This document shows positions 9,801 through 48,600 of a stretch of DNA of 64,000 nt, one piece after another. Source of the DNA: Antedon bifida (taxonomy: Eukaryota > Echinodermata > Crinoidea > Comatulida > Antedonidae); contig OY727095.1 in the NCBI GenBank assembly GCA_963402885.1, positions 31,873,001 through 31,937,000 of the forward strand, read 5' to 3'. Under the pieces are notes generated by a model. The model was given only the letters and a program-made list of their open reading frames with translations. It had not been told where the DNA came from and did no database searches. Made by a program: the position numbers and the translations under genes. Within the stretch, counting starts at the first letter, position 1; each line of letters opens with the position of its first letter.

Positions 9801-10004
9801 TGGTGGTGGTGATGATGATGGTGTTGGTGATGATGATGGTGACACAGATGATGATGATGATGATGATGGTGGAGGTGATGATGATGGTGACGAAGATGAT
9901 GATGGTGACGAAGATGATGATGATGATGATGATGATGGTGGAGGTGATGATGATGATGATGATGGTGGTGGAGGTGATGATGATGATGATGATGATGGTG
10001 GAGG

Positions 10005-10036
<32 letters not shown>

Positions 10037-16000: not shown

Positions 16001-18752
16001 TATCTTACATTGCCTTGGTTGGATTTAAAAAGCAAGTATTGCGAACATCATCATCATTATGATATCATTAATTCCCATTTCATTCCAGTTTATCATCTTG
16101 CTTGGATTTTCGTTAAGTAGAGTTCGTGGGATGACTTCAAATTTGCGCAAGAGTTTGCAGCAAAATGCATGTTTTCTAAATCTGAAGACATTTTTAACAA
16201 TACATTCGATGATGTATAATAACAGCTAGAAAATACATCGCCATTGCACAGTTTTGAAATACATATCAGACTATATACGAATTTCTAGTTATAGTCTATA
16301 GTCTTTTATCACAGACGAATTGCCTATTTTAAATACTTTATAATGTACATTTCGCTTTGGCCTTTTCTTTAGGAATTGATATATTCTTATGAGCATACAG
16401 TATGTTGGTATGATTATTTAATGTCCATTATTATATTTCGTTGTACTGTATAGGCCTATGCATTTTATTTAGGACATTCACTTCAATAAATAGGCCTATA
16501 CTTCGTTCTTTTAATTTTTAACTTAGGCCTATACTTCATAAAAATCAAAACTTTTTTTAGTTTGTTGTTGTAACCGTGGCCTATTTAGCGGTTTTGACAA
16601 CCAATATTTTTGATCACGCATGCGCACATCGATTCTATTTTCTCTATTGATTGATATTTAACTAAATAATAAGGTTATTATTAATATTCAAAATCACTAA
16701 ATAACAAATGATATTGATTATTGAAATGAATTTAATGGTAGACAATTGCCTATATTGAATATATTACATAAGTATCATCAATTATTATGCCGAAAAATAA
16801 TGAGAGTACATTGAATGTTTAAGATAATGTATTTGCAAATCCCTCGTTTTCAGATGAACTATACAATAATGGTTAGCTTACGTTAAGACGAAATAATTAT
16901 CCAAAACATTGCGGCTTACTATACGAAGTTTACATATAATTTATTGGATGTTGGAGTCTCGATAAAATGTTAGCGCAAAGCAAACAAAAGATGTCTTTAC
17001 GAAATTGTTATTAACGCGAAAGGAGAGTCGTAAATAACCATACAGCATCACAATACTAAAACGATTATAATGTTCATAACATCAAGAAAGTTATTTCAAA
17101 CAATAAAGACGAATTTAAAAACGTTTTAATTTCTAATTCGTTTAGATTTTATCAGTTGGATCTTGAATTATGATCGTAAATATGTTCATTATTTGCAATT
17201 AAAGAACATGCGTTTTAGCATCTTTGTTCAGTATTAGACCTATGTGTTATATAGTATATTTTTAACATAAACTTTAAAATATCATGATAATTAATATTAT
17301 TATATTATGAATATTGTTTAGTATAATAATTTATCATTTATAAGGTTATATAATGAATCAAATTACATAAGACAGATATATAGAGTATAGAGTAAAAATA
17401 AATTATGAATTATATTATGTTCAACGAAATTTATGAAATGAACCAGTAATGTCTATATTTCTTTATAAATATGCTAATTTTAAAAAATACAGATTTATCA
17501 CAAAATTTCAAAATTAGTACGTGCGAATTTCAACGAAAAATCGAAATTATATAAGTTATAATATTATATTATTGAAATCAGAATGTTATGAAATTAAAAT
17601 GTTATGACAAAAAATTCAATTTATGCAACACCTAGGCATATGTCTATACATCCGAAACACGTAAGCACGACGAATGCTCAGCCGATCTGACGACTTCGAG
17701 CCGTGTGGTAACTATTACGAATAGTAGCCTACACAATCAAGCTTTGAAATACCTGTAGTAAAGGCTTACTTATAAAACGTTGAAAGACGCTGATGCGTTA
17801 TCATTTTTAAAACATGCTACTGAAAGACCATGATGAGTTCGTTTATTTTAAATATATGTTATGTTCCCATTGACATTGTTTCAATACCAGACACGTCGTG
17901 ACGACCTGAACGGCTAAGAGACACTTGATGTTACATTGAGAGCATTATCATTGTTACAAGTATACATTTGTTAACTTAACGAAAATATTTGTTTGTAAAG
18001 TGAAAATAAGTCAGTTTACCGTTGGGTTAGGACAAGAGATAACCTTTGTTTTCGATAACAATTCGATATGGTTCAATGCCGTACCGAAGTGGTGTGGATC
18101 GATACATACTATGTAATCATGTGTTACACGATACCAGGTGTATAGGCCTAACTTATAATTGAGCTAGAGACCTCCATTTCGATAAAGAAAAAAAACAATA
18201 GCTTCTAACTATTAATGTTGATAGGTATAATGTTGATAGGCCTACAATATTGATAATATATCACTATTTTTCATTTCATCACAAGCCCTAATGTTTCTAA
18301 ATTAGTTTATACTTTAGTTTACTGAATGAGAAATGAGTACACATACCTGAAGCACAAGCTAGACGGTCTGCCCATGGTGATGATGCTTGGAATAAACTCG
18401 CAGGATGCCAATATAAAGGTGATGGTCCCGGGCTTCCATGCCCTGCTAGCTCGCTCAACGGCTTAGCTAATCGATTCAAATAAAAACTAGATGCAAAAGA
18501 GTTCAGACGTGGAATACCCATTGAAGTTGCAAAGAATGCTCCCGCCGATTCCGGCCTACTCAAAATATCGTTGATTCCGTGTGGAGTGGCCGACGGCGAC
18601 AGTGCTTTACGGACATGTCCTGTGGGGTAGCCTAGCCCCGGTGTTTTCTCCGCCATATTATGTAAAGCAGCAAGTTGTGGATTGCTCATAATAAATGCAC
18701 TTGATCGTGAAGGGTTCATAAGAGCCTGGAAGTTCAATAAAGAATCTGTCAT
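3576..18752 (-). CDS. Nkx6: NK6-class homeobox transcription factor, complete three-exon gene
   Basis: The CDS joins 18347-18752, 11449-11633 and 3576-3800 on the minus strand: 816 nt, 271 residues plus TGA, with compatible phases and GT-AG introns of about 6.7 and 7.6 kb. Domains in order: an eh1-like repressor motif near residues 19-35 ([18 protein letters not shown]), the NK6-specific block [12 protein letters not shown] at 56-67, a conserved pre-homeodomain stretch ending in [10 protein letters not shown], the homeodomain at 152-211 and an acidic Ser-rich C-terminus. W48, F49, Q50 and N51 correspond to residues 199-202. NK6 proteins are nuclear, mostly Groucho-dependent repressors that pattern motor neurons and endocrine or gut endoderm in bilaterians; that role is family knowledge. 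At 271 residues it is shorter than human NKX6-1 because the Ser/Ala/Pro-rich linkers are missing. Confidence 0.97.
4000..4141. mobile_element. CArG foldback MITE, copy 2 (Nkx6 intron 2)
   Basis: Left end AGCCCTGTCTACACTATCAA, central CCATATATGG CArG box and TGATGATGTCAT, right end TTTGAGCTTTA with the distal TIR partly deleted. Confidence 0.85.
7200..7380. promoter_or_regulatory. Candidate enhancer block in Nkx6 intron 2
   Basis: Non-repetitive and rich in known site types: an AGGTGTTAATAGACACAC T-box-like pair near 7244, a perfect octamer ATGCAAAT at 7283-7290 flanked by duplicated CGCGTTTCAC, and GGACAATCG (Sox-like). A 72-residue open frame on the minus strand crosses it but shows no recognisable protein. 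Confidence 0.35.
8790..8945. promoter_or_regulatory. Candidate regulatory block in Nkx6 intron 2
   Basis: GC-richer island containing TTGGCGCCAAAGGG (E2F-like palindrome), CAGGTGTT and CCAGGTTACGCGGCC. Not repeated elsewhere in the window. Confidence 0.3.
9745..10230 (+). repeat. GAT/GGT trinucleotide array in Nkx6 intron 2
   Basis: About 480 bp of GAT, GGT and occasional GAC/GAA triplets, with higher-order blocks such as GATGATGGTGGAGGTGATGA. It produces open frames in several phases on both strands (poly-Asp/Gly, poly-His, poly-Ser, poly-Met/Val), all of which are artefacts of triplet periodicity. Confidence 0.95.
11010..11324 (+). mobile_element. TTAA-flanked MITE family B, copy 1 (Nkx6 intron 1 side)
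   Basis: Begins TTAAAGATGTATTGTCCCCC and ends ACAATATATCTTTAA, so the ends are inverted repeats bounded by TTAA. The interior is AT-rich, with a TTTTTGGTCAAAGTA word shared by all three copies. No ORF. A TTAA target is piggyBac-like; that link is inference. It sits just left of Nkx6 exon 2, inside intron 2. Confidence 0.85.
11449..11633 (-). CDS. Nkx6: Nkx6 coding exon 2 (homeodomain helices 1-2, start of helix 3)
   Basis: 185 nt encoding an Ala-Ala-Ala-Ala-Gln start, the basic [13 protein letters not shown] arm and most of the homeodomain through MTESQVK. The acceptor is a tandem one: ttttttag is followed directly by CAG CAG CAG. The exon ends in phase 0 at donor gtaagata. The residues [20 protein letters not shown] are essentially invariant in NK6 proteins. 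Confidence 0.97.
12178..12252 (+). mobile_element. Non-LTR retroposon 3' tail (GCGCTATATAAATG type)
   Basis: GTAAAGCGCATTTGAGCATG, then GAAAAGGGCGCTATATAAAT, ending GTGGTATATTATATTATAT. This stem-like tail is widespread at the 3' ends of L2/CR1-type LINEs and their SINEs in marine animals (family knowledge). Only the tail is recognisable. Confidence 0.6.
12840..13060 (-). other. Possible reversed retroposon tail
   Basis: TCAAATCAATTCAAAATAAC followed by AT-rich sequence and a GGGACA-rich stretch (12970-13050: GGGACACAAAATGAAGGGAC, GGGACACGGGACAGGACA). It looks like the reverse complement of a retroposon end plus simple repeats; not assigned. Confidence 0.3.
13695..13880. mobile_element. CArG foldback MITE, copy 3 (Nkx6 intron 1)
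   Basis: Longest copy: three ~20-bp ATATCACTACTATATTTGGG-type units in the core. Both terminal repeats are present (CTCTGTCTACACTATCAAAC and its mate ending GATAGAGCTTT). The CArG box has decayed to CCATATTTAG. Confidence 0.88.
15739..15915 (+). repeat. 42-bp CpG-rich tandem repeat, four copies (Nkx6 intron 1)
   Basis: TTGTACG recurs at 15772, 15814, 15856 and 15899 (spacing 42, 42, 43) within units containing ACAGCTTTTGTACGCGCGCG and TTATGATACAATTGG. One unit carries the exact ACGCGCGCGT word. Confidence 0.88.
18347..18752 (-). CDS. Nkx6: Nkx6 coding exon 1 (residues 1-135 plus first base of 136)
   Basis: The ATG at 18750-18752 begins [17 protein letters not shown] and has A at -3. The frame stays open upstream but no in-frame ATG was found in the nearby 5' sequence; a further upstream TTG is not a plausible eukaryotic start. 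An alternative downstream ATG (residue 12) would still retain the eh1 motif. The exon ends GCT TCA G followed by the donor gtatgtgt. It carries the eh1-like repressor motif and the [10 protein letters not shown] block that identify the NK6 class before the homeodomain is reached. Confidence 0.95.
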
Positions 18753-19220
18753 AATTCGCTTTTTCTTAGAAAAATCAATTTCCAAAATATCTTCAGAGCC
18801 TGTTAATTGACGTTTCTTGGCGAAATATATCGCAACGGGACTCGAGCATCGGTCGCCTAAAACAGTAAGTTGCTTCGTACGTCTTGCTTCATAAAGTTAA
18901 GCATAATAGGCCTATAAACTTTTTATTCTTGAACTGGAATAATTATAGCGCCTTGAGTATCCTTAGAGAAGCTCCTGACGTGTGTACTGCTAAGGTGAGT
19001 GCAAAAGACACAATAGTAGATACTCTGTTTGTATTAGTATATCGTGTATATAGAAATACCTTTTTTCTTAAGTACATGACAAATTGATACCATAAATCAC
19101 AATGTGACGTCATCAATCATTTCCACGCCTTCCTCTCAGTGGTTGACTTTCATCCAAGTCCGTGATTGGTCGACAAAAGTTGTCACAATCATATAATTTA
19201 CATGTCTGTTTACTTATTGG
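18753..19220 (-). promoter_or_regulatory. Nkx6: Nkx6 5' UTR and proximal promoter region
   Basis: Immediately upstream of the start codon. A CCAAT box on the minus strand sits at 19165-19169. A pyrimidine-rich acceptor-like sequence ending at 18857-18858 (CTGTTTTAG) could be the 3' end of an intron in the 5' UTR, giving an exon start at 18856. No convincing TATA box was seen. The transcription start is unknown. Confidence 0.35.
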
Positions 19221-21470: not shown

Positions 21471-22684
21471 TATTGTTCATATACCAGATAATTTGTTGTG
21501 TTATTTGGTTATAACCGTGTCGATTGGTATTGATTGCTATTTAATTTCTCGTCGCTAGGTACGTGGCTGTGACGTAACACGATTTCAATCATAGTCACGA
21601 AATTGTTTTATTTTGGAAATTGAGATGGTGAATTGTCTGCACGAATTTGTTACAAAAAAACCGCACACATCTTATCATAAGTGGCATACACCATCACGAA
21701 ATGTGTACGCGCGCGTAAATTATTAGCACACGCGCGCGTAAATTGTTAGCACGTAAACTGTAATAACCGTATATCTATTTGTATAGGATTACTATTTCTT
21801 TTGTGATCAATTTATATTCGTCATGCACAAAAATGTATACATTTATCGTTACATATTACTTTTATACTGTTCTAAAAAAAAAAGTCCCTTTAGGAAACTA
21901 CTTTTAAAAAATCAGTTTATTTCCTGATGAATTAAAATACCTACTCGATTATCCATGGGTAGATTGTATAACCACAGGCAAATTCACCACCTGGTTTGTT
22001 CTGAAAAATAAATGAATAGATATTTTTAAAAATGTATTCAATATGATAGAAAAAATTAAAGATTGTTGAAAGTTAATGGGTGCAATTTACATTCAATAGT
22101 ATGATTTTCATGATTGGCATTGGTTATTATAGTTCATTTTGCCATTAGGTGAACATGAACCAGTTCGGCAAAGTCATAATGTAGGACATTCCGAAATATA
22201 CTGACTTTAATTACTTCATTTATCATAACCGAAATATATAAGACATTGTTAAGACGATAGTTTGAGATAAAGATATGATGATTAAAGGAAACGTACGTTG
22301 CATAATAATCTACTCAAAACTTATGCTGTTTTTGAATTAGTTAGTATGTTAGTTTGGTGAATTTTTATAAAATAATACACGGAATATAATACGATAATAC
22401 GCGATCTATAATTTGACGTTATATTACACAACTAATCGCAGAAAAGAAAGCGGTACTTTAACAATTAGTATATACTCCCACATCCAAAAAGTGTCATAAT
22501 TTGATACACCAGTATGCAGCGAATTTATCTAAACGAATTTAAAAAGTTTACATTTTAGGAGATAAAATATATACCGTCAAGTGATAGTTTTAATAATAGT
22601 GAAAATGAGAACATCTCAAAAATATCAATAACAGAACTTGTGTGATTCAAATTATCAAATGAGATATATATATGATATATTTTT

Positions 22685-31062: not shown

Positions 31063-32976
31063 TGATTATTAACGGCGTAAGCGTTGAGAGAGACATACGT
31101 AATTCTTTAAAGAAATTTAGGTAATAGGCCTAAATAACTTTTTTTTTTTTGTGTGCACTGCACATGGAGAGTTCTATTTTTCTACTACACAATACGGTAC
31201 AAAGCAAATAAATAGGGACTGCGTACTTCTTGTACTTTTCACAAACTTGATTATTGCTTACGCATTGGCATACATATCTATAGTCTCTCTCTCCCAAATA
31301 ATTCTTTATTTTTGAATACATAAGAATGTTACATACATCCCAGGTCACAGCTTGTAGGACCAAGCATACTGTATACAGGGCAGAACAATACACATACAAA
31401 ACAGTGCAACCGCATAAAATGCATACAGTAGGCCTTACAGCAATTGACATTTAAAAGTAAACAATATTATGAACTTTAGGGCTTAACTCGAATGTGTATA
31501 CAGTATAAAAGGTGTTTTACCTTACTCATAATGTTTAAAACATGACATTTTCAAATATAGCATGTCATAATACTTCAACCTAAAAGATTTCTTCCGAGAT
31601 TTGGAATGGCTTTGTAGTACACCATGCCACTCCACTACAACAACCATCTAACAATACAAATGACGTAATTGGTATGTTTAATCCATCTGCTTCTGTATAT
31701 GCAAATGAATAACATGTTATCTTTATCGCTATTATCGAACTTTAAACGTACAAAACTTTCTCAATATTATTTGGATTTTATTTTATTAAAAGAACTCTTG
31801 CGGTTATGTATTTTAAATTGAATTTACTAGAAAACGAAAATTAGATACAAGACCTATATGACAAGTAAACATATTTAATTTGTCAGTACATAATTGTCGG
31901 AATAACTTCGACTAAGTGGTGGATTTAGCAAAAGTCGTTTATTAATCGTGAAATAGACTCGAGTAATTGAACAGCTTATACAATACCACTTTAAATTACG
32001 AGCAGGCATTATTCATCATTGAGTCCTAGGCCTGGTAGTTGATCTTAAACGACTAGTTTATGCTAATTTCTCTCTGCCTTAGAACGTCTCAAGTCCCTTG
32101 CATCACATCCCACAGGACCAATTTTACTCATTATCGAAATCTGACGGTTATATTGTTCTACAAGACACGAGTTAATTAGAGATGATCACTTGTACGGCTA
32201 TTCAACAGAATAAAGATACATTAAAATAAATTCCATTTACGTTCATTTTCTAGATCGTTTAGAGCGTTTCAATTAAATCATCGCAAATGAAGTCATTTAG
32301 ATATAACAGGCTAAACGTACTGCCCCTCGGCAAATGTCATATAAGAAAACCTAGTCTTTAAACGTCGTAAATGTCCTGTTGATATACACATTAAAGATAT
32401 TTTAACTTTATATTAAACATTTCATTTAAACGATTTCGTTATTTATAAGGGACACTACTTTGGAATGGACAACTATATTATTGCTATACCGTTATTTACT
32501 CATTACCTTTATGTGCAGTTTTACATGGATGAATGTTCAGTTACTAAATAAAACTTTTTAAGCCACAACTTACGTTGTATTCGTTTTATTTTGTATAACA
32601 TGAGCATGGAGGTATAAAAATAATTTATAACTCCATGATATGAGTTCGTTAAATGCGCAGTCTCCGTGTAGCAAAAAACTGTTTTTATTGTAGCTTGGTC
32701 TTTGTATCGATTGAATTAGTATTATAAAGTGTTACATTTTATTAGGTTTAGAAAATATTAGGTTACTTTCTTCAAACTAAATACATTAAGATAAATAAAT
32801 CATAATTGTAATAGTAATGCTTTAACTTGTTATCCTAATAACGGAAAATTTAGTAATAGTGTAATAATGTAAGACTATCTCGTAACCAATTTATGATTTA
32901 ATATTAGTAAGTTTAAATTTAAAGGCATGTTATATTTTTCGATCCGGATTGGATTGTAACAACTGCTTTATATTTA

Positions 32977-33306
32977 TTAAAGATGTATTGTCCCCAAAAA
33001 CATGAAAAATAAAGATTATTTAAATCTGACTTTGAATAGGTTATTTTGTAGTGCTAATAAACTTTCGTAGAAAAAAAAAGATAATGTTTTCACTTATAAA
33101 ATGACATAATAAATCGTTAAATTTAACCAAAAATCGATTGGCTGGCAATTTGACAAATATTTGCTTTAAACTACATTTTTTCAGGTAAATATTATTTTTT
33201 TTAGACCCAATTTTTGGTCAAAGTAGATAACTATTATGTGACATTAAAATGGCATATTAAAAAAAAATGTTAAAAATTATTTTTCAGGGGGACAATACAT
33301 CTTTAA
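32977..33306 (+). mobile_element. TTAA-flanked MITE family B, copy 2 (intergenic)
   Basis: Full copy in the same orientation as the one at 11 kb: TTAAAGATGTATTGTCCCC to GGGGGACAATACATCTTTAA. The interior aligns throughout by eye. Confidence 0.88.
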
Positions 33307-33309
33307 GCA

Positions 33310-35490
33310 GGAATAGATGAAAATGCAGACGCATACAAACAGCAAAAAGAAACACAAACATTGACAAATTCTCTCAGTACATACATAGTATATTTATTAA
33401 TTTCCCGCCAACAATTAAATATCATTAGCTAAAACAAGACTTGAGTATTAAAATCAGTATTTAACCAGAACCACAGTAGTAAACAATAACAAATATTGTA
33501 ATAATTGTTGTATTATATTACAAACCATTTCGCATTGACAACAGCACCGATCGCTATGCGCGTAAAACACATTTAAAATTGTAACCAATCGGTGGTTCGA
33601 TTTAAGTAAGATTTAATGTTTGCTTGTTTTATGGTTTGAGCCTACGAAAGATTCGTAGAACAAAACGGTTGTTTAAATGATAACGGGCAAAAATGGTCTA
33701 TGATATAATCGAGCACCAATCTATCGTACGGTATAACATTTCGATATGTTTCAATCTTCATTAAATGGCCGTAATTCGCAATATTAACAAACTAAATATG
33801 GAAACACACATATAACCTTCATTTCAAATTTAAAGGAATTGTGTATCAACATATAAAAAATGAACAAACACATTTTTAATGTAGTTTCTTTCAAATGTTA
33901 TTTCTTGGTCGAATAATTTATAATAACAGAATATTAATAATATCCTTAATACAACATAATTTGGCCATACACTTTAAAGACACCACATAGATACTCTGAC
34001 ACGGGCGCGTAAACGTTGTTAGCAACGTTACAGATATTGAACGCGCGCGTTCAAACACTGATACGATACGTCTTGTCGACGCGCGCGTTTAAATACTGAT
34101 AACAATGGTACGGTTTATGTACGCGCGCGTCAAATTTTGAGTTTCTCTGTGGTGGCTATCATAACGATCATATCGGTCACTAATTATACCTTAAATATAC
34201 ACGTATCAATCATTGGACCGGGAAAATTGGCATCCTAATATTAATAGGTACTAGAAAGGTAAAACACCTTAGAATATCTACAAGTCTATTATTATTTATT
34301 ATAATATTTAAGATACATTCATAATTTATCAATTAAATTGCAACATTCCACTTATTTCATTATATTTAAGAAAAGGTAAAATGGGCGATAACATCAACGC
34401 TTAGTATAAGAACTATTTTGTGTTAATTTGTAAATACAATTACTAATTACAATTTTTCTAATTACTGTACATAGAGTGTATATACAAGGAAAGACTCACA
34501 CGGGACAATATAACAACAAGAAATATGAAGATTATTAAAATGAAAAAAAAAAGTTAATAAAAACACGTTATTCAGCCTAGTGTAGAGACAATACAATGTA
34601 AAAGACAAGTATTAACGATAAAATCCAATACATTTACATTTTGTAATTATTATGGCGTTAAAAAGCTTAAAATCAAAATGAATTTGCCTCTTACTGTATA
34701 TTATAGGCTGCTAAGAATTTCACAAAAACTTTGGTAAAAATACAGAGGGAGCTATTCACTTTTCAATATTTAAGAAAATTAGTGACATTTAAGAAAATCA
34801 GTGAAATTTAAGAAAAATGTGAATGAGAATTTAAAAAAAATATTGTTTACAATCAATACTGTTTAAAATTATGAATAACATAAAATAATGTGAAACGAAA
34901 TAACAAGTAATGAATTTTGACAGTGACAGCAGTCTGGTATTTGTATAAAGATAATGCCAGACAGATTAAACGCAATATGAGGTAGAAAAAAAGTTCAAAC
35001 TCAAACACTATCTAACAAGAAACTTACATAAGGTTAGATGTTACATAACAACAATACGCATACTAAACATAATTAATGAATATTTAAACGCTGATGACAA
35101 TTCTTGAATAAATAACTCTAAATTTACATAATAATCAGTATTTTCATAATACTATATTGTATTTGCTCAAACCCTCTTTGTCAGGGCGACATCCTAACTT
35201 AAGCTACATATTATTCCCTTTGGGATCCTATTTTAACAACTTTTTACATCAATGAATATCAGTATACCATCTTGTGTGCATGAATATTCATCATTTATAT
35301 ATAAATATTCATAACCTTATAAATATTCATATGCCCATAAATATTAATGAATCTATTTTAATCAATTAAATTAAACTTGTTTCAAGTAGGGGGCTAACAT
35401 TTAAATTTCAGAAGAAATTCTAAATTATTTTCCATTCATAAACAGCAAAACAACTGATTAATACAAAGTTTTAAACTTGCATAAAAAGTG
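33310..35490. other. Intergenic transition zone
   Basis: Contains the last three ACGCGCGCGT words (34041-34130), after which CpG-rich motifs stop. From 34.2 kb onwards the sequence is very AT-rich with short self-similar phrases (ATTTAAGAAAAT at 34768-34818). No gene seen. Confidence 0.6.
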
Positions 35491-35497
35491 CATTATA

Positions 35498-35745
35498 AAA
35501 ACAATCTAAGGAGTGATTAAAAACAATCTAAGGACAGATTAAAAACAATCTAATGATAGATTAAAATCAATCTAATGAGATTAAAAACAATCTAAGGAGT
35601 GATTAAAAACAATCTAAGGACAGATTAAAAACAATCTAATGAGATAAAAAACAATCTAAGGAGAGATTAAAAACAATCTAATGAGATTAAAAACAATCTA
35701 AGGAGAGATTAAAATCAATCTAATGAGATTAAAATCACATGAACA
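35498..35745 (+). repeat. ~20-bp minisatellite (AACAATCTAAGGAGAGATTA)
   Basis: About 12 copies alternating AACAATCTAAGGAGAGATTA with shorter AACAATCTAATGAGATTA forms. It lies in the transitional region between the two genes. Confidence 0.9.
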
Positions 35746-36339
35746 ACAGCAGAACAAAAATAACAAATAAAATATAATTAAAATTTAAACTACTATGACT
35801 AAAAAAAGTGTTAAAACGCTCTTTGCATGACGTATTATTCATTTACATTATACTGATAACATTTCTGAATCGATGGGAAATGTGTAAAAAGCTAACCAAA
35901 CTTTGTACTTTTTACCATAACACATTTTAACTTTTTGCTTTGTCAAAAGTACATACTTTTTGGAGATAGCCAATTAAAATGTTCCATCTTTTGTCATAAA
36001 ATCAAACTAAAATAAAATTATTTGTATAGTATAAACAAACAAAAAGGTGGTATTTAAAACAATTACAGTAATATAATAATCGGTAGTGTCAACCATAATT
36101 ATCTTTAAGATTGTTTCTACTAATTATTATTACTGCTATTTAAAAATGTTAAATATCAAATTTATAAACAACATAAAAAGAATAAAATACATTTTGTCCA
36201 AAATCTTGTGCATAAACATAGGGCTAAAAATATTAAGTATAACTTAGTATATCAGATTGAGAAGTCAATAATATTTAGATGACTTAAATTATGATTCTAT
36301 CATAGATAGTTTGGATTAAAGTTTAAGTTGTAAGATTTG

Positions 36340-36840
36340 AAGATCTGTAGCGGTTAGAACGAATTGTAAAGTCTAGATTCTTCAAATATGGTAAGTGCAG
36401 ATTTCTGTATAAATAGCATTATGATACAGACACCTGGCAATATAAAAAGAGCTGTACTTCATATAATCCAGTAAATGGACACAAACAGTTAAGATTTCAT
36501 GTCAAGCTTCATTGAAGAAGTGGAGAACAGTTCCACGGCAATTCTTTTAACTTAGCAATTTCTCTTTCGATTACAGAATCTTCTAAACGGCATTCTCGGC
36601 AATGTCGAGATCTTCCAAACACCTTACAGGTTCTTCTAAATGGCAGCAGAATCTTGATCCTGTAGACATCAGTAACCAGACAACTGGATAACATCTAGAC
36701 AGCAGTTTCTTTAAAGATTGGTGAAAGGTTGTTGAACTTTCTCCAGACAATGTCTTGATTTTCAAAATCTGCAAAGCAAGGCAAGATATTGTAAAAGGAC
36801 AATTCATTCATGCATCTTCTTTACAGTTTTACATATTCAT
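36340..36840 (-). other. Moderately complex segment, possible transcribed 3' region
   Basis: Less AT-rich than its flanks and open in two overlapping minus frames (36509-36694 and 36583-36807). The translations contain no recognisable domain. It could be part of a long INPP5A 3' UTR or a non-coding RNA; neither is shown. Confidence 0.25.
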
Positions 36841-37339
36841 TTTAGATCATCACTTCCTCACTTTCAGATAAAATGTATTTTCATATAGACTAAAATACCC
36901 CTTTTACACTGCCTTGCTAAACGCCATACAAAACGAAGGTGTTGACGCCTTGATTTGTGTGCTACACGAGAGGTATAATTTTCCATTTACCCATGGAGTT
37001 CTCCACAATTTAACAGCACCATAAGTTCTAAACTCTTTTGATATTACTTTTCTTAGCGACGGATCAAAAATGGTGAAATGAAGGGCTGAGTTTAATTTGA
37101 TGTCCTATCTTTTGCATTACAATGTGCAAAATTTAGGGGGAGCCCGGGCCGACATAAATATGGTTTTAAGACAGCTTTGGGAAAATTCTAACTATCAGGG
37201 AATAAATTGAAGTGCATTTCATTATAAAATGTGAAACAAAATTTAAAATGAAAATTCAAACAAATGTTATAGCAATGGGAAAAAAATCAATTTTTAAAAA
37301 CAAATATCAAATATAGGTACAGGACCCTAATAAAAGGTA

Positions 37340-37945
37340 CAGGACAGTGATGATGATTATAATGATCACCATTCTATGATAAATATGAACATAATTATGG
37401 TTATGATGATGATAAAGATGATGATGATGATGAAAATAATGATGCACATAGATAATTATGATGACACTGATGATGATAATGATGGTGACAATGATGATGA
37501 AAATAATGATGCACATAGATAATTATGATGATAATGATGATGATAATGATGATGACGATGATGAAAATAATGATGCACATAGATAATTATGAGACAATGA
37601 TGATGATAATGATGGTGATAATGATGGTGACAATGATGATGAAAATAATGATGCACATAGATAATTATGATGATAATGATGACGACGATGATGAAAATAA
37701 TGATGCACATAGATAATTATGAGACAATGATGATGATAATGATGGTGACAATGATGATGAAAATAATGATGCACATAGATAATTATGATGACGATGATGA
37801 TGAAAATAATGATGCACATAGTTGATGATGATGATGATGATGATGAAGATGATGATGATAATGATGATGATACTGATGACTATGACGATGATGATGACTA
37901 TGATGATATTAAATGATACTGATGATCATAATGATGAAATGACGA
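37340..37945 (+). repeat. GAT/AAT array with ~60-bp higher-order unit
   Basis: GATGAAAATAATGATGCACA followed by TAGATAATTATGA recurs about six times, separated by variable (GATGATAAT)n. The open frames here (poly-His/Ile, poly-Met) are repeat artefacts. Confidence 0.93.
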
Positions 37946-39844
37946 TCATACAAGATATTCAGATGGTCAATAAAATATAACAGAGGCAGATCTACAATTA
38001 ATAAATAGGCATGTGGTTTCCATTGTATTAAGCTCTGTTTTTTTAAAAAAGATTAAATATTAAACTGTAACTGTAACAAAATGAAATTCTAAGCATAAGA
38101 TAATGTAGATAGGTAGGATTAGTCATGCAAATAATATACAACAATTAATTTTCCATAATGCAAATATTCATAAAATACAAAAGCAGAAGAATAGTTCTAC
38201 ATGCAACTTGCATTATTCTATATAATAATGGCCAATAATAAAAAAACTAGCAGTCGACAAAAGGTAAACTGAAATGAAGCCTGGTTTTAATAAAATCAAT
38301 ACAAAGCAGAGAAATGACGACCCTCCTCCCCAGTAAACAGTGAATTTATAGATGATGATGATTGTTCATTTCTGATGGATGACTGGGTAAAAAATGTTCA
38401 GGTTAACATTTTTCAGATGCGTGGTGAATTTGAAATCTCTCTTTTTTCAGTATTATTCACCTTTTTTGGTCTATTTATCAAAATAAAGTTAACAAAATAT
38501 TTGGGCTCTCCTCCTACATTTTAAGATACTGTTGGGGAAACACTGCATTCTCCAGTGGTGTATATAGTTTTGAAATAGGGAGTCTCCAGGGCCTAAAAAT
38601 TGAGAAAGCAAGTGCTTAACTGAATTTCCTATTCTTTGCATTGTAATTTTCAAAATTCGACTTGCCTATGATTTCACTCCCTTTCAAAATTTGGTATATC
38701 TGTATTATTGTATGGAAGAAGCGTTCCTAGGATTTTCTGTTACGCATATTGCTTCTAACTGAACATACTGATGTGGAATATAGAATTTATAAAAACCAGG
38801 CTTTAAGGGTCTTTCACACCTGTTCCGGCATGGTTCCGGTCAGGCACTGGTAAAACAAACCGAAAGCCATTGTTTCATTTTCTTGCGGCTACGCACACAT
38901 CTATTGGCACATAGCCGTGTGGAATGTCATGAAAACGAAAAACATTTAGGTTTGATTTGATTTGCCAGTGCTGGACTGAAACCGTACTGGGATAGGTGTG
39001 AAAGAGCCTTTACACAGACATTGCACCAGACAATTTGAACAGCATGAGTTTACCAGATATTAGTATGATGGGTAGCACTTAAAATCAGATGACTCTAGGG
39101 CCCAGCGTGCACATATATAATATAGTCAGCATGGCATTTCTCAGCGGAGATATATTATTCCCTGAAGCAGAAAGCAATCCAAATGAAAGTTCATTAAATA
39201 AAGGAAGGAAATCAACAAAACAAAAATAGGAATTAAAAGAAAATAGAAATTAATTTGGAGGTAAGAAAATTTGTTATAAATATTGGGAAATTCGTCTCAT
39301 GAAAAAGCAGAATTTTCTGATAAACAGTTGAATTTTTAAAAAGATATTGTTTTGGTTTTGCAGGACACACATGACAAAAGTCTGTAATTATTGGTTTCTT
39401 TTTATACAAAGCCACCAGCGGGTGTTTTTATTTGATCATAAATTCGATTAGAAGTATATTTATGACATGCCATGCATGCCAAAAATGTTTTCTTTTCACA
39501 AATATTAACCAGTATTGCTGTCTAGGACATAGACTACCAAAAACATAAAACATTCCAAAAAACAGTTTCATCATTCAATGAGATTTTAAGCTTCTTTTAA
39601 ATTTAAACGAAAACTTTGGGGATGCAGAAAAGGTACCAACAAAAATAGCATGTATTAAGGATAAACGTCATTCAGAAGGGAAAGAAATGTAAGCATTTAT
39701 TACATGCAGAGTAATAAAGAAATATATATTAATGCAATATGATTATATAATTCATGTTATGTCATTCTTCTACTGACAATTATACCAATTCTAAAAGTTG
39801 CCACTAAAATGTTAAAGAACATTTTGAAGACTGTCTAATTTGAG

Positions 39845-40010
39845 GTACAATAGAGGAACTCTTTTAGTACACCCCTATTAAAGGGACACTTTGTGTAACA
39901 AATGAAGGTCAATATATGTTTTAACACGACAGCCAACCTCTATCCAGGGTACACCATAACAAGGATACATTGTTTTCTTACAAAGTGTCCCCTAAATAGG
40001 GTTTATACTG
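39845..40010. mobile_element. Inverted-repeat family D (GTGTCCCCT), copy 1
   Basis: One arm reads CCCCTATTAAAGGGACACTT and the other AAGTGTCCCCTAAATAGGG. It lies within possible INPP5A 3' sequence. Similar arms occur at 55.2 and 61.9 kb. Confidence 0.6.
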
Positions 40011-40364
40011 TTTTTAGTAATTTCATTAATTAAAATGCAGAGTTCAACAATTTGTAATTTGGAGACCTTAAGAAAATGTTCTTGCAAACCATGCATTTTT
40101 AGTGGCAGTTTTATCGTATAAATCTCATAATAAATATGTATATAAATAAACAGTATTAACATAGAATAATTAGTAGACATGCAAAACACTAATATCTAAA
40201 AATAATATCAATAGAAATTCTTTTCAATTCAATTTGCATGTTTTTAAAGCACAGTACTATTAAGAATAGTTGGGTGTTTAGATTCCCCAACTCATGTATT
40301 TTTTATTGCACAAAGCGACAGGCAGTAATATACAGGTTTATGATAGATACCCAAATTTAGAATT

Positions 40365-40515
40365 AAGCTCTGTCTACACTATCAAACTTTATGAGACAAA
40401 AAAATGTGATGTGCCCATATATGGACATGATGATATCATACCTACTACCATATTTGGGTATATCACTACCATATTTGGGCACATCACATAAAGTTTGATA
40501 GTGTAGACAGAGCTT
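40365..40515. mobile_element. CArG foldback MITE, copy 6
   Basis: Both TIRs intact (AAGCTCTGTCTACACTATCA and mate), core CCATATATGG, flanked by TA dinucleotides. Confidence 0.9.
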
Positions 40516-40880
40516 TATACACACAGTAAGCTTTCATTTTGGGACGGTATACAAAAGGAGAATTTGTGGGGTGATTTACCATTCATCTACCATCCCTAAA
40601 CGAAAGCTCCCTATTTTCCAGATGCATGTAAATTGTTGGTGTTGCGTCATGTCTTTGAAAAGTCTCCATTAATTATACAAGTGTACAACATGCAGTGCAG
40701 TGTGAACACAATGTTAATGTCTAAAACTAAATACATATATAAAAAAGTATAGGGTATTAGTTTTTTTCTAAATTGTTAAATAACAAAATCACATGAAATT
40801 GTTTTGTTGCAAACACCAGGTCATAAAACATGAAACACAAGCCGTTCTTGTAAACATTGGTTTCCACTAGAACATCAAGT

Positions 40881-41044
40881 AGAGCTCTGTCTACACTATA
40901 AAAGTTTATGAGACAACAAAATGTGATGTGCCCATATATGGACATGATGATGTCATACCACTACAATATTTGGGTATATCACTACCATATTTGGGCACAT
41001 CACACTTTTTTGTCAAACTAGTTTGATAGTGTAGACAGAACTTT
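40881..41044. mobile_element. CArG foldback MITE, copy 7
   Basis: Second copy within 400 bp of the previous one, both downstream of INPP5A. Intact CCATATATGG; TIRs slightly diverged. Confidence 0.9.
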
Positions 41045-41752
41045 AGGACGTGGACAGAATGCAACGACATAGATGCATCACACATGCATCAAAAGGTCAT
41101 TCCCACTTATCCAAAGGAAATAGGAAGATCTATGATTTAGCCAGATGATGTCTGACATTTTGGTTCGTTACAAAACAACTGTATCATATGAGATTGTTAT
41201 TTAACTCTGTAGACCTCTAACATGGTAGCAGAAAAAATGGAAATAAAATTGATCATAAAAATGATAAAACAATAAACTTACACAAAGGGGAAGTGAAGCA
41301 AAACAGGGATTCACTTTTGATCAAAATCTATACTGTGCCAGGTACAGAAATAAAAACAGCAAAAAACATGTTATAAAATAAAATATGCACACCATTTTAA
41401 ACATTTCTCTAAACACTAGAGAGAAAGACTAGAAAAAAAATGTTGATGAGTGATTTCCACATTATGGTTTTAATTTGTAACAAAACAGTGATACTTCTAT
41501 GGGCATGTTCAGCCTTAGTAATTTAACCGGTTAAGTTGGTCACCTACTAATCAAAGTTAGTATAATTTTTCCATGATGCCAACTTAGCTGGAAACTTTAA
41601 TTAAGTCTGAACAGGCCCTATGTGTACATTGATTATTAACCAAATATTACTTAATTTTCCGTAACCATTAGTTCGATAAAATAGATTAATAATAATTAAT
41701 AATGACATCATCATGAGTTAGTAAAGACATTTTGGTATGGTCTTCTAAAAAA

Positions 41753-41950
41753 AGTAGTTTTTATATAATTTATATTATAGACATATAGAGTAAAAAAATG
41801 GGTGTCTGATAGACTAATATCTATGTGTACTCTAGATGTAAATAATATGGAATGGAGTAATCTTAGAGTGTAAAGTAGTTTTTATTTAAATGATTTATAT
41901 TATAAACATATACAGTACTGTGATATATCTATGTGTACTCTAAAATAACA
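41753..41950 (+). repeat. Two-copy direct repeat, ~125 bp
   Basis: AGTAGTTTTTAT...ATTTATATTATA(G/A)ACATATA(G/C)AG and ATCTATGTGTACTCTA occur twice in the same order. Confidence 0.7.
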
Positions 41951-42149
41951 TGAACTTTTCATTACACAGAGCGTAATAAACATGCTCAAACACCAGTCAA
42001 TGTGGTGACAGCTTCTAAAACTGAAATTGAAACTAACGTGCAGCTATGCTCTATTTTTGTAACCTATGCTAGCCAGATAGTTAACTTGAAAATGTCCTAC
42101 TAAGTGAATAAATTTAGTGGATAGGATTATCATTTCAATTAAAACCAAA

Positions 42150-42518
42150 TATAGTTCATTTATTTGTAATATTAAACTACTGTTTTTTAATATATCCATT
42201 CACTTTTATGGAAAATAACAAAAATGATCAATTTTCCTGTTAAATTGCTCTGAAAAATGTCTTTTGGTCACATATTTAATTGTTTTTGTTTTAATTAATA
42301 TACTAACACACTGTTGCTATTAACTATTATAATTATTTTAAAAATTAATCAAGGGAACATTAAAAATTCTATATTATTTTATTTGTGAAGAAAAGAAAAT
42401 GAAAAAAGTTACAATTACAAACTTTAGTGAAGACGACATGCAAGAGTTAATAGTGATAACTTACAACAAGTGAGGGCGCCATACAGACAATTGCACACAA
42501 GAGGAAATGACACAGGTG
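42150..42518 (-). terminator. INPP5A: INPP5A proximal 3' UTR with candidate poly(A) signals
   Basis: Minus-strand AATAAA hexamers are at 42378-42383 and 42159-42164, about 140 and 355 bp after the stop. Longer 3' UTR forms reaching further left are possible, since the CpG-poor composition of the gene body continues to about 34 kb. Confidence 0.4.
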
Positions 42519-42620
42519 TCAAAGAACTGTACAACACGACATATCAGAATCACTACTTTTGTTATTACTTTGACGACTGTTACCTTTTGAATTCGCTAAA
42601 GAGAAGTGAAGATAAACTGG
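42519..42620 (-). CDS. INPP5A: INPP5A last coding exon with CAAX box
   Basis: Starts PVYLHFSLANSKGN directly after acceptor tttctcaattgcag, completing the GDHKPV motif in phase 0. It runs 33 residues to TGA at 42519-42521 and ends DMSCCTVL. Cys-Thr-Val-Leu is a CAAX box with Leu at X, the geranylgeranyltransferase-I preference; the human enzyme ends in Gln and is farnesylated. The linker between PVY and the CAAX is Ser/Asn-rich and not conserved, which is why the motif start and the CAAX carry the assignment. Confidence 0.9.
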   Translation of the reverse strand, partial: PVYLHFSLANSKGNSRQSNNKSSDSDMSCCTVL

Positions 42621-45600
42621 CTGCAATTGAGAAAATAATTAAGCACAATTAAATCATATTTCTTCTTCTATCATATTTAAACTTGATTTTACATGATATT
42701 ATATCAAGGAGGCTTATTATACAGAGTTATACAAGGTACATCTTCATTTCATTAAAATACCAAATACTTGAGTATTGTACATGGGCCTGAGTTATACGGA
42801 GGATTAGAATTGGAGTAATAGGTACTGTACTATCCAACTGAATTTCCACTATTCAATCCATCTTTCTTTATATCAATGGAATTTTCATTATATAAGCCAT
42901 TCCAACCTTTGAAGAAGAACATTTTTTTTTTTTCTTTATTAATTTTTTTCTTTATTACTTTTTTTTAATAATTTTTTTTTTCAAACAAAATCTTTGTATT
43001 ATTTGAATAATATCTTTCATTGAGTATAGTAAGATTACAAATTAATGTCTATGAAACTGTAACTGACATCATTTTATTCAACTTTGATATACTTACCTTG
43101 TGATCCCCCATGCATACATCAGCCCCAATCACTTCATACTCTGCTTGATTGTCATTCGTCTAAAGGAGAAAAAAAAGATACTGTAATTGTAATATGAACG
43201 ATTATAATAAAATAACAAATAAAGAAATGTTTGTATAAACTTTCTTTTTTCTTTTATTTTCAATCTTTTAAAATAAAGGCAAGGTAAAAGTTAGGTAAAT
43301 TGTACCTAATCACATTTGGCTACATAATCTTTCAAAAAATAAATACAAATGCTGGTTCATAGGGACTTTCTATTGGAATATGACTTTATTTCTTAAGCTC
43401 TGTCTACACTATCAAACTGGTTGACAAAAAAAGTGTGATATGCCAAAATATGGTAGTGATATGACATAATTATGTGCATATATGGGCACATCACATTTTT
43501 TTGTCACATAAACTTTGATAGTGCAGACAGAGCTTTAGTGTTTATTCGCCAAGCAAACCTTGTACAGTACATACCATAATCAACGATTCATTTGCACTCT
43601 TTGAATAAAAGACCCTGTCACACCATGACGGAACACGAGTCTGCATGTAGTCCTCACCCTGGTTCATGTCTTCACTATAAGGGTAGCTAAAATAAAATAG
43701 AAACCATAAAAATAGAATTAATGGTAAATTCCCATTCTCGAATTAAACTGTGTAAATAATTTAATTGACTTCGTGAGGTAATTTCCCGCATGATCGTAAT
43801 CACAATGGTACTGGGTTTGGTCTACTAGCGTTCCTGCTCCCAACTCGTCATCCATTCATAGAAGCCTTGATGAAGTAAGCCTACCTGGTGGTGACCATAG
43901 AACGGTCCCGAGATAACGACTATACTTCGGCTTTAGTCGATAGAAATATTGTTAGAGATAGAGTATACAATGTTTGATTATGTGTAGATGTGTGATTTAT
44001 TCTATTATTCAAATGATGTTCCGCATAAGGAGATGAAGATAGTAGTTGAGTGTAATGATTTTGTATATCAATTAATTATCCTAGACTGTATATTATGCGA
44101 TAATTATTATTTTATATATATTTTGTTAATATTTATTGTTATGATTATAATATTAATAAAAAGATATTTGTTAGTATAAATTTATTTATTTAAGTGTATT
44201 TTTTTTTTTATTATATATTTATATTTGTTTTTTCTTATGTGCTGCAATATATTTGTAACTATGGACGTGAATCCAGAATAAAAGCAAAATTGAAATTTAA
44301 TTGACTTAGGACATTTTATATACTGGTATAGTTTTTACACAGACAAAGGTAAACGCATACAAAACACAGTGACACAATAACTTTTTTTCACATCCTGTTA
44401 AATTGTCATCAATAATAATATATGTTCTCACCTTGGCGCAAATGACTTTTCGTGCTCCAAGAAATGCTCAGAAAAACTACCAGCCTCTTTGTCAAATTGC
44501 AATAACTAATAATAAAAATAGGTAAACATTGAGATTTAATGAATTCTCCCGGAACTCAAACACTAAACAATAATATAATTAATGTACAATTTATTCCTAT
44601 TACCCGGTATGAAAAATTAATTAGGAATACTATACACTTGCACAGAAATCAGCAATTTGGGACAGCCCAAAGATATCAAAACACTATGTTTGAAAATAAA
44701 TGTGTTTTCTGTGTCCGGGTATATATTTAATTTTCTGCTATCTATTGGTAAAACTTTACAATCATTTATCTTTTAAAAAATAGAAAATAGAGAATAATTA
44801 CCCATTTGGCTTTATTTGGTGAGATTTCACTCGCCTCAAATTTCTTCTTTTCTAGTGTTAACACAACCTATTATACGCAGGAAAAAAAACATTTAAAATT
44901 AATATATACAATAGAAATACAATAAAAGATGTAGTAGAAGAACTGGTACAAATTTTGGTAACACACAAAAATGTGCAAGTAATTCTATGGTGGGACTCAA
45001 AACTATGATGTCCAGTGGCTGTATTCACCAATCACACTTAAGTGAGATATTTACCTTAAATATTAAGTATTTCACTTAACTCAATAAAGTATTTACTTTA
45101 AGTAGTATTAACTTAGATAGGAGATTTGTTTTAATTTTAGAAGTTTCCCTTAGCCTAAGTGTGAATACGGTCACAGATCACTAGCTTGGTGTTTATACCT
45201 CCCTCTACCACCTAGCTTGCGCTGATAGCTACGTTAGATTGAAGTCCAAGAAAGTAGCGGGTACTGGACCAACAGGACAATAATTTTCTAGACTACTGCG
45301 AAATAGCTTTAACCCTCATGAAGCAGTAGTTATATAATTATCATCCATTGTTGTCAAAATATCAAATGCAAAATGGTTCAGATAATAAGTGTATTACCTT
45401 GCCAGAATTTCCATTCTCAGTAAATATAACTTTTACTACATCATTGTCCTCTTTTATGTACTCGCCAGAAGCAGATGTTGTCAGAGCCTATAAAAAATTA
45501 AACAAATAAATTAAGCATTCAAAAGCTGAGCGAAATACAAGAAAAGCAAAAGTACAATATTAGAAAACAAAGTACAATTATAATGTTTTTGTTGAAAAGC

Positions 45601-48600
45601 TAAAAAAGGTGTTTTAAATTGACACTAATTTGAAAACAGTATTTATGTTATGACAATTTCTTTTTCCCACCACAAATAAATGTGATAAGTCACATGTTGT
45701 TTAATGACTATAATGTGATTGAATAATAGGCTAATTATAGATGTTACATAACTGCTACAGTAGTTAACATTTTAAATATTTCACATGATTACTTTAATAA
45801 CATAGATGATATAATAAAAAAGAAAGTGAAAATGAAAACACAGTTATTAAAAAGCTATGTCTATACTATCAAACTAGATTGGAAAAAAAAGTTTGATGTG
45901 CCCAAATATGGTAGTGATATGTCCAATTATGGTAGTGATATGACATCATTATGTCCATATATGGCCACATCACATTTTTTGTCACATCAAGTTTGATAGT
46001 GTAGACAGAGCTTAACAATATTTGTAAAAGATTGAAAGCAAGATCTTCTTACTTTGACAACATCATGCGTGTCCAGCCTGAAGTTGAAATCTCCAAACAC
46101 AAAGTATGGCACCTTATCATGTTGGTCATTTTCTAACCTACAACAAATATTTTTAGTATATAATATACAGTAATAGATTTTCAGGCATAATATTTCTCAA
46201 TATTTAAGGCGCAAGGTCCCCCCACTTGTCGAGTCTCCGAGCAATTAAGGCAGGGCTGCCGCAATCCATCGCTATACAATCGGCACAGGTTCAAGGCACT
46301 CCTAGACCATTGTTCTGGTGGTAGAACAAGTCTTCTCGGATAACGATACAGTAGAATATCTTGTCTTGTCTCTACGTACAGCCAATCAATATTTAATGGA
46401 GCATTGGGGTTTAACTATATTTCTTCAATTAAACAAATTCAGCTGGGGATATACTATACCTGTCTAGCACAGCCAGAAGAGCCTTCTTTCTTTTATTACT
46501 GTATGTGGATGGAAACTACAAATAAAACAGTAGCAATTTATTATTGAAAAGCTCTGTCTACACTATCAAACTTTATGTTACAAAAAATGTGATGTGCCCA
46601 TATATGGACATGATAATGTCATATCATATTTGGGCACATCACACTTGTTTGTCAAACTAGGTTGATAGTGTAGACAGAGCTTATTTACAACACCTTCTTT
46701 CAGCAAATATCAAACAGTATTAATTGCCAGTTATAGAATCTTATTGTGAGACTGCTGTTCATTTCTGCCGTCACAAATGCATTTCTTCAAAACATTAATT
46801 TATTATCAACTGCTTTACAACTGGATTCAATGAACAACTTGCAGTCGAGATATAAAATACATTATATACTGGACATAATTGAGTGTAGCTTGTCTAGTAA
46901 ATTAACATAATTTGATGTGAGCACAGTTAATATTAGAGCTGTCAGATGTAATTACTTAAAAGTTATTACAAACATTAATGACAGCTTGTCATATTAAATA
47001 GACAAGGTATTGTATATTGAGAAAATGGCTTTAATAGATTGCTATTAACTATAGTCTTATATTTCACATAGTCTGAACACAATCAAAGATGGTGGCGTTC
47101 AAATACACGACATTCACTTACCGACTGCATGGCAATCACATTACTGGCATCGTGAAATAAATGTAGATTTATCAGATCAAAAATGCTATTAAAAAAAGAG
47201 AATAAATAAATTGTATTATAAAACAAGGTAAATTTTTTCGGTCCTCGACTCTTATATTGGTTTGTTTTGTATTGGCAGAAATTTGAATGATACTGTATAA
47301 ATAAAAATAAATGTAAGAGTTGAAATGAAAACAGAAAGTCATTAACATACAGTATTTCAAGTAGGCATGCTTTACATACTTCATTCTGTGGATGTTTGTT
47401 TATATTGGTTGTCAAGTAAAAACAATAAATCTTCATTAATGAATTTCCATAGTTAAAATGAAAAAAATAATATTTTGAAAAGATACAGATATTGAAAGTG
47501 ATACTGAAGAATGTATAAAGCTCTGTCTACACTATCAAACTTTATGTGACAAAAAAAGGTAGTGATGTGCCCAAATATGGTAGTGATATGCCCAAATATG
47601 TTAGTGACATAACATCATCATATCCATATATGGGCATATGTCACATAAAGTTTGATAGTGTAGACAAGGCTTAAAAGAAAATTAAAATTTATCTGGAATA
47701 ATTTATTATTAGTAGTAAAAGCTAGAAAGATATTGGAGAAAATAAACGTAATTCTTTGGATGGAACATTAAGCCAGTGATCGCGTAAGGCAATAAATTAA
47801 GAAGAAGAATTGTGCATTGGAATAATTCTAGATATTTTAATATGTTTTTTTATTAAAAGCAGAATATATTCTACAACATATAAAATGTCAGTATGTGTAG
47901 TTAACCAAAACGAGAATTCTAAAAACAATTAAAAACACATATTAATTATCTTACCTTCCATTTATACACCACCTGGTCCGTAAGAAACCTTTCCGAGAAA
48001 ATTTGGACTGAAAAAAACCCCCAAAAAACAAGCATAAAGTATACAATTTAAGGAAAATTTTAAGGAAAACATTTTTAAATAAAATATATTCACGGTAGAA
48101 TACAGTATTAATATTTCTTATCCAGTTTTTGTATAACAAAACCTAATATTATTTTACACAAGATTGTTTTTGTAAATAGTATTACGTATATAAAGCAATC
48201 CCAACTTTAACCTACAGTTATGTATTTGTATTGATTATCATATTATGTTGATAAGTATTATTTTTGACTATTAAGTTTCATTCTATACACGAATATATTG
48301 ATGTTATCCGTTAAATTAAAATCATAAAAAACTAAATATCTGTATTGATTATTGAATACAGTATTTCTCCTCAATTTTACTTTCACTGTGTTGTACAGTA
48401 GTGAATGATTCATTTTAGTCAATTTAAAATTAGTTTTTTATTTGTACTTAAGTCAATGGTTATTGTAAGAAATTTGCTCTTGGTAGTAATATTAAAAATG
48501 TTCATGAAATATCTTGTAAGTTGAGTTAAGACAAATCTATTATTAGCTTCAATTTTGTAGCTTGTCCCTTTTTGCAATAATACATTATGAATGTAAGGAA

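Follow-up and report, generated by a model that had tools for sequence, protein, structure and literature searches.

A CpG step between Nkx6 and INPP5A in the crinoid Antedon bifida: presumed mosaic methylation and a local change in two short words

The window analysed here is a stretch of 64,000 nucleotides from the genome of Antedon bifida, to which flanking DNA was added (10 kb at its left end, 20 kb at its right). It comprises two minus-strand genes, Nkx6 and the coding exons of INPP5A, which lie in two domains of different CpG content (given as the observed/expected ratio, o/e), together with repeats and two recurrent short words. The features are as follows.

949-34,220, no strand: CpG-rich domain with Nkx6; non-coding CpG o/e 1.13-1.31; extends leftward beyond the window for at least 10 kb
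3,705-18,896, minus strand: Nkx6; homeodomain exons at 11,446-11,613 and 3,705-3,800, likely N-terminal exon within 18,297-18,896
6,481-31,132, no strand: span of the 21 left TAGGCCTA sites, from the word count
33,777-34,694, no strand: interval containing the CpG step, which is best placed at 34,221 (33,779 if the CGCG-rich array is omitted)
34,000-34,140, no strand: CGCG-rich array at the step edge; related to 15,742-15,912, with relatives across the genome
34,221-64,000 and on to about 75,247 in the flank, no strand: CpG-poor domain, from segmentation
34,221-42,518, no strand: CpG-poor DNA past the INPP5A stop; 8.3 kb, o/e 0.43, predicted to be transcribed
42,519-62,084, minus strand: INPP5A coding exons inside the window, from tblastn with a human bait and from Pfam and PDB matches of the joined exons
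50,267-53,432, no strand: CpG-rich dispersed repeat in an INPP5A intron; two head-to-tail 1.5-kb units, 91% alike
54,075-54,081, plus strand: TACTGTA; bare TA in a related copy
55,846-55,852, plus strand: TACTGTA in a MITE; plain TA in 12 of the 14 other copies
60,118-60,124, plus strand: TACAGTA; bare TA in a related copy

The joined INPP5A exons match the Pfam family Exo_endo_phos2 (E 6.5e-16) and also solved inositol 5-phosphatases in the PDB. We take the gene to be INPP5A, a name based on the human sequence used as the tblastn bait. Its last coding exon starts at 42,620 following an AG, the protein ends in ...SCCTVL, and the first coding exon lies at about 74,200, to the right of the window (15 residues, 80% identity, E 0.002). 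For the likely N-terminal open reading frame of Nkx6 (18,297-18,896) no Pfam match was obtained. In a human case report, INPP5A and NKX6-2 head the gene table of one 10q26.3 deletion (PMC12453924), a proximity that fits an ancient linkage of the two genes; among the literature matches listed for INPP5A with Nkx6, none concerned invertebrate synteny by title.

Segmentation of the window placed the main change point at 34,221 (log-likelihood gain 167.7, compared to a maximum of 5.5 among 30 permutations), and CpG o/e drops there from 1.20 to about 0.5. Leaving out the CGCG-rich array (34,000-34,130) shifted the best change point to 33,779 and widened the 2-unit support limits from 34,207-34,674 to 33,777-34,694. 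The first-pass annotation had reported a sharp switch at 31-34 kb. The step is real, but it falls at the far right of that interval, and CpG remains high across 31-34 kb (1-kb o/e 1.13-1.21). Its hand counts of CpG in five 1-kb pieces (24, 40, 8, 10 and 9) were all within two of a recount (26, 39, 7, 10 and 9), and the step is also present in the plot of CpG o/e in 1-kb windows that it had suggested, with values mostly of 0.8-1.6 across 1-35 kb and mostly of 0.25-0.7 thereafter, apart from 50-54 kb (1.14-1.94) and 59-60 kb (1.23). In the segmentation, the exceptions were 50,291-53,432 in the poor half (o/e 1.77) and 1-948 in the rich half (o/e 0.35). The latter is a local dip; in the flanking DNA the CpG-rich domain continues for at least 10 kb further left. 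Across the step the dominant dinucleotide change is that of CpG (z -10.9); increases are seen for CpA/TpG (z 6.1), ApG/CpT (z 4.1) and CpC/GpG (z 2.8). The two sides hardly differ in GC content (0.306 and 0.296).

The CpG-rich block at 50,267-53,432 was considered as a CpG-island promoter, a candidate that was rejected because it is not unique sequence but a dispersed repeat, with relatives in two of 23 random 10-kb stretches (L022 and L032). In its look it resembles Helitron-like elements; the four of its 34 open reading frames of at least 35 aa that were scanned had no Pfam match. A CpG-biased change is absent between its copies (20/172 vs 45/381), and compared to other loci 65 CpG were kept and 48 lost, in alignments that partly overlap. 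A MITE family identified by blastn has 16 copies in the window, eleven on the CpG-poor side, four on the CpG-rich side and one at 1-72, which together hold 4 CpG against about 68 expected. Since the MITE is CpG-poor within the CpG-rich side too, its poverty predates insertion. A literature search with a MITE end found no paper, and a scan of Rfam returned nothing at gathering scores.

When the flanks are included, the CpG-poor domain spans 34,221-75,247, with an o/e of 0.51 excluding the repeat block, compared to 1.22 on its left and 1.07 on its right. Its right edge is upstream of INPP5A, about 1 kb from the first coding exon, and its left edge lies 8.3 kb past the INPP5A stop, as the first-pass annotation had put it (8 kb). 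After masking of the arrays, MITEs, exons and repeat block, the non-coding o/e for Nkx6 was 1.24 downstream, 1.31 in the introns and 1.13 upstream, and for INPP5A 0.43 downstream and 0.60 and 0.57 in the introns; the exons themselves gave 0.66 for INPP5A and 1.07 for Nkx6. The Nkx6 region is thus CpG-rich throughout, evenly so over introns, intergenic DNA and repeats. In the 8.3 kb past the INPP5A stop, eight of the 34 open reading frames of at least 52 aa were scanned, and none of them matched a Pfam family.

The second change at this locus concerns short words. TACGGTA/TACCGTA (TACSGTA) had been described as giving way to TACTGTA/TACAGTA (TACWGTA) on the right, exactly as CpG deamination would have it. 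The rise in TACWGTA stands (14 in 949-34,220 and 50 in 34,221-64,000, with one in 1-948), but the fall in TACSGTA is weak, with seven on the left vs three on the right. TACGGTA and TACCGTA are one word read on two strands. Compared to a second-order expectation, TACWGTA was found 48 times vs 7.8 on the right (minus 50,267-53,800) and 14 times vs 6.0 on the left. Among the right-side TA-NNN-TA words it reached 46 vs 8.1 expected, followed by TACGATA with 6 vs 2.0. A second word, TAGGCCTA, which contains no CpG, occurs 21 times in 949-34,220 (0.3 expected), never in 34,221-64,000 (0.2 expected) and once in 1-948, and stands far out among TA-NNNN-TA words. Deamination does not account for the word change: seven TACSGTA in 33 kb cannot yield 50 TACWGTA, the CpG-less TAGGCCTA switches too, three TACWGTA sites have a bare TA in a related copy, and TpG/CpA are not specifically raised. 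The TAGGCCTA switch, which was overlooked in the first reading, is sharper than that of TACWGTA.

TACWGTA is described as the canonical excision footprint of Sleeping Beauty in two papers (PMC3432063, PMC4378557), and scars left by excised Tc1-like transposons are the most likely origin of the sites in this genome. Among 72 non-tandem 5-bp differences between repeat copies, five belong to the TA-CWG-TA class (the largest class being AAAGT, with 13): the three sites listed above and two, in L022 and L032, that lack a true TACWGTA and were not counted. An ambiguous event in L016, outside these five, was not counted either. The two cores are enriched only when flanked by TA, being near expectation or absent with other flanking pairs. 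On the plus strand of the CpG-poor domain TACAGTA and TACTGTA are equally frequent (38 and 41), which is evidence against an RNA signal. For TAGGCCTA the indel cases consist of one clean 6-bp GGCCTA insertion at a TA (L020) and one 4-bp case (L033); among the literature matches listed for this word, none was about genome words by title.

A possible, though less probable, explanation sees TACWGTA and TAGGCCTA not as transposon scars but as binding sites, or as maintained words comparable to HIP1, an over-represented palindrome in cyanobacteria. It is favoured by the one-mismatch neighbours of TACWGTA, which are near expectation except for TACACTA, a component of the MITE, and by the search for a source element, which gave no convincing inverted repeat with CAG ends in the sequence examined. 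A search with Pfam PF01498 was empty as well, although it was also blank in 14 of 14 control genomes. More than 300,000 TACWGTA-type words are counted in the mouse genome in PMC4378557, and the word by itself therefore proves nothing. Against maintenance stand the three 5-bp insertions of the exact class at a TA in repeat comparisons, the equality of the strands and the confinement of the enrichment to TA-flanked cores.

The words were also compared to the CpG domain. Per 10 kb, TACWGTA and TAGGCCTA have densities of 19.3 and 0.2 inside 34,221-75,247, of 3.8 and 5.7 on its left and of 2.3 and 2.3 on its right. When blocks were fitted to the word positions without regard to CpG, TACWGTA proved dense in 45,750-74,500 (log-likelihood ratio 38, with 20 uniform draws reaching no more than 7.6) and TAGGCCTA sparse in 31,250-82,500 (17.6 vs 6.1); only the right edge of the TACWGTA-rich block lies close to a CpG edge. 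The random set consisted of 23 10-kb stretches, of which L012 and L014, being wholly repeats, gave no bins and were dropped from most counts, leaving 21; L020 was also excluded from the dinucleotide table and from one of the two comparisons at the 10-kb level. In these 21 stretches TACWGTA occurs 159 times vs 52.7 expected (3x; 7.6 per 10 kb) and TAGGCCTA 111 times vs 3.0 (37x). In sums of four random stretches, 79 TACWGTA were never reached in 20,000 draws and at most one TAGGCCTA was found in 0.07% of them; the INPP5A domain is unusual in its words.

A methylation-driven origin of the scars looked promising in the window and its flanks but failed in the random stretches. Across 78 bins from the set of 23 stretches CpG o/e showed no correlation with TACWGTA (rho -0.006, p 0.96) or with TAGGCCTA (rho 0.20, p 0.08), nor did it at the 10-kb level (p 0.18-0.80) or when 20 stretches were divided into 2-kb bins (p 0.17 and 0.47); in the 49 of the 78 bins with GC below 0.34, TAGGCCTA gave a rho of 0.30 (p 0.03). 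As neither word follows CpG in the random stretches, the word switch is local, and its cause was not found.

As to the CpG step itself, we consider it likely that a germline-methylated transcription unit, that of INPP5A, has its edge there, with Nkx6 spared, and that the word change is separate and local. The mosaic methylation proposed in the first-pass annotation is supported in that the CpG-poor domain covers INPP5A, Nkx6 is CpG-rich and DNMT1 is encoded in the genome; the derivation of TACWGTA from TACSGTA by deamination is not supported. DNMT1 is represented by one exon with Pfam PF00145, read as an open reading frame, which matches DNMT1 chains of the PDB at E 3.4e-20. According to PMC3827831, methylation usually drops steeply at both ends of a transcription unit, body methylation accompanies broad expression, and transposons of Ciona are often unmethylated. 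Germline gene-body methylation of INPP5A, presumed here from CpG content, is the best reading and would be ordinary invertebrate biology. The INPP5A body would have been CpG-methylated in the germ line over a long time, with its CpG thereby reduced to what CpG transitions running about 4-fold faster would maintain. The developmental regulator Nkx6 and the DNA flanking it would have escaped methylation. The 8.3 kb past the INPP5A stop are predicted to be transcribed, either as a long 3' UTR or by read-through. The case for methylation rests on the fit of domain to gene, on DNMT1 and on known invertebrate biology, and the direct evidence is modest.

A methylation-free origin of the CpG poverty, in a different regime of mutation or repair that goes with germline transcription or with a compositional domain, is unlikely. 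This alternative draws on the way in which CpG was lost. When the right-side dinucleotides were modelled from the left, CpG loss to any base fitted best (summed z2 1.2), compared to 20.5 for CpG to TpG/CpA and 170 for no change, and TpG/CpA are not above the level expected from loss to any base. The balance between the CpG deficit (151 per 10 kb) and the TpG+CpA excess (155) looks like proof of deamination but is no evidence for it; loss to any base fits better, and at a fixed base composition falling CpG forces other dinucleotides up. In the random stretches, too, a CpG deficit accompanies ApG/CpT at least as much as TpG/CpA (slopes 1.24 vs 0.33, Spearman -0.71 vs -0.57). The dinucleotide comparison counts against bulk deamination in the recent past but does not count against a long-standing steady state. 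A simulation of the equilibrium reached when CpG transitions are 4-fold and kappa is 3 gave ratios of CG, CA, AG and CC of 0.43, 1.13, 1.07 and 1.06, beside observed ratios of 0.41, 1.135, 1.12 and 1.12; ApG and CpC are observed about 1.6 standard errors higher, and the simulated GC (0.280) is lower than the observed one (0.296).

Deamination as the route of CpG loss is weakly shown, and the decay of repeat copies tests it only weakly. In pairs of repeat copies, which are partly dependent on each other, CpG transitions exceeded non-CpG ones in low-CpG surroundings (39 pairs; 29/174 vs 323/2607, 1.35x, p 0.1, not significant by itself) and in mixed surroundings (96 pairs; 201/1232 vs 855/6215, 1.19x, p 0.02), and the sense was opposite in high-CpG surroundings (85 pairs; 265/1792 vs 846/4795, 0.84x, p 0.006). 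CpG loss was not clearly greater in copies from a CpG-poor context than in those from a CpG-rich one (49 lost, 37 kept, p 0.24), with 33 and 18 in the GpC control. Among the pairs in the window, CpG changes were in excess in the right-side array at 37.4 kb (4/10 vs 5/101, p 0.004) and amounted to 4/9 vs 6/26 in the right-side pair at 56.5 kb (p 0.39), and the left-side 132-mers went in the reverse direction (4/84 vs 51/336, p 0.011); the other left-side pairs gave 0/8 to 2/8, and two left/right pairs 2/6 and 3/6. A regime without methylation is opposed by the dominance of CpG among the changed dinucleotides at nearly equal GC, by the presence of DNMT1 and by the closeness of the equilibrium methylation model to the data.

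A reading in which CpG poverty is the default and selection has retained regulatory CpGs around Nkx6, making the CpG-rich side the exception, is very unlikely. A developmental regulator does lie in the rich domain, and eight of the 21 random stretches have a CpG o/e below 0.65 (across 105 random 2-kb bins it is broadly spread, without clean bimodality), but the richness is uniform over introns, intergenic DNA and repeats and for at least 10 kb leftward, and the DNA upstream of INPP5A is likewise CpG-rich. That two sequences were joined in assembly at 34 kb, or that foreign DNA begins there, as the abruptness of the change might suggest, can practically be dismissed, as the MITE family and a three-copy dispersed element are common to both sides, the site is within a 35-Mb contig, and CpG recovers at the upstream end of INPP5A.

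The presumed methylated INPP5A unit resembles the mosaic gene-body methylation of the Ciona type, in which a CpG-depleted transcription unit stands beside a CpG-rich developmental regulator, with sharp edges and a DNMT1; it differs in that methylation is here read from CpG alone and in that the low domain reaches 8.3 kb past the stop. DNA methylation valleys are a feature of vertebrate developmental genes, holes in a methylated genome. The long, presumably unmethylated domain across Nkx6 is similar to them, although here it is the presumably methylated gene that forms the island. TACWGTA shares with the Sleeping Beauty footprint TAC(A/T)GTA the identical word, the equal orientations and the bare TA in a related copy at three sites; unlike in that case, no source element with matching ends was found in the sequence examined, and the density is 19 per 10 kb here vs 7.6 in random stretches. 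TAGGCCTA, like HIP1, is an exact palindrome far over expectation in random stretches, with mildly raised neighbours; unlike HIP1, it is found in an animal genome and is absent from 34,221-64,000, and the GGCCTA insertion in L020 hints at a transposon scar.

A further idea, which we regard as unlikely, is that two scar families have been sorted by chromatin, TACWGTA into the germline-transcribed, methylated INPP5A domain and TAGGCCTA into the unmethylated Nkx6 domain. In PMC3680223, CpG methylation is reported to boost Sleeping Beauty-type excision in cell culture, an effect that would be a candidate cause of such sorting. Given the partial match of the edges and the lack of a link to CpG in random stretches, the sorting factor would need to be narrower than CpG level. 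If the sorting is true, short scar words would be a record of old germline chromatin.

Overall, presumed mosaic methylation fits the locus well and would be nothing unusual, and to it is added a local change in two scar-like words that is not accounted for by deamination. INPP5A and Nkx6 would represent a two-edged case of mosaic germline methylation that can be read from sequence alone, and an INPP5A transcript extended by 8 kb is predicted. The two TA-core-TA words, enriched in the random stretches and sharply unequal across the border, may offer a cheap handle on the history of transposon excision in this genome.

Nkx6 and INPP5A lie next to each other in head-to-tail orientation (window 3,705-62,084), and an extract of a published report (PMC12453924) names INPP5A together with the Nkx6 counterpart NKX6-2 at human 10q26.3. 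Several repeats were located in this neighbourhood and in other stretches of the genome (L-numbers, each with its own coordinates):

Window 11,008-11,296; 32,975-33,306; 54,734-55,033: dispersed element in three copies, ends near TTAAAGATGTATTGTCCCC
Window 15,742-15,912; 21,707-21,752; 34,000-34,140; also L002-L008: arrays with ACGCGCGCGT-like words
Window 40,363-61,748 and elsewhere: MITE of 140-185 bp, 16 copies, ends AGCTCTGTCTACACTATCAAACT
Window 50,267-53,432; also the random stretches L022 and L032: CpG-rich dispersed repeat of 1.5 kb, copies head-to-tail
L031, about 850-2,160 and 8,740-10,000: direct duplication of about 1.3 kb, upstream of INPP5A

The two duplicate copies in L031 are 95% alike and about 8 kb apart. 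Copies of the three-copy element are found both left and right of the CpG step. The arrays are spread over many genomic sites (52 matches, including those of the window itself). The MITE is almost devoid of CpG at every location, and several of its copies have TTA adjoining each end. The 1.5-kb repeat, which contains ATGACGTCA motifs and a hairpin close to one end, is Helitron-like in appearance.

Short words were also over-represented: the exact palindrome TAGGCCTA, a CpG-free word, occurred at about 70 times its expected count in window 949-34,220 and at 37 times expectation in 21 random genome stretches. TAGSCTA was likewise above expectation, with 94 occurrences observed versus 24.1 expected.
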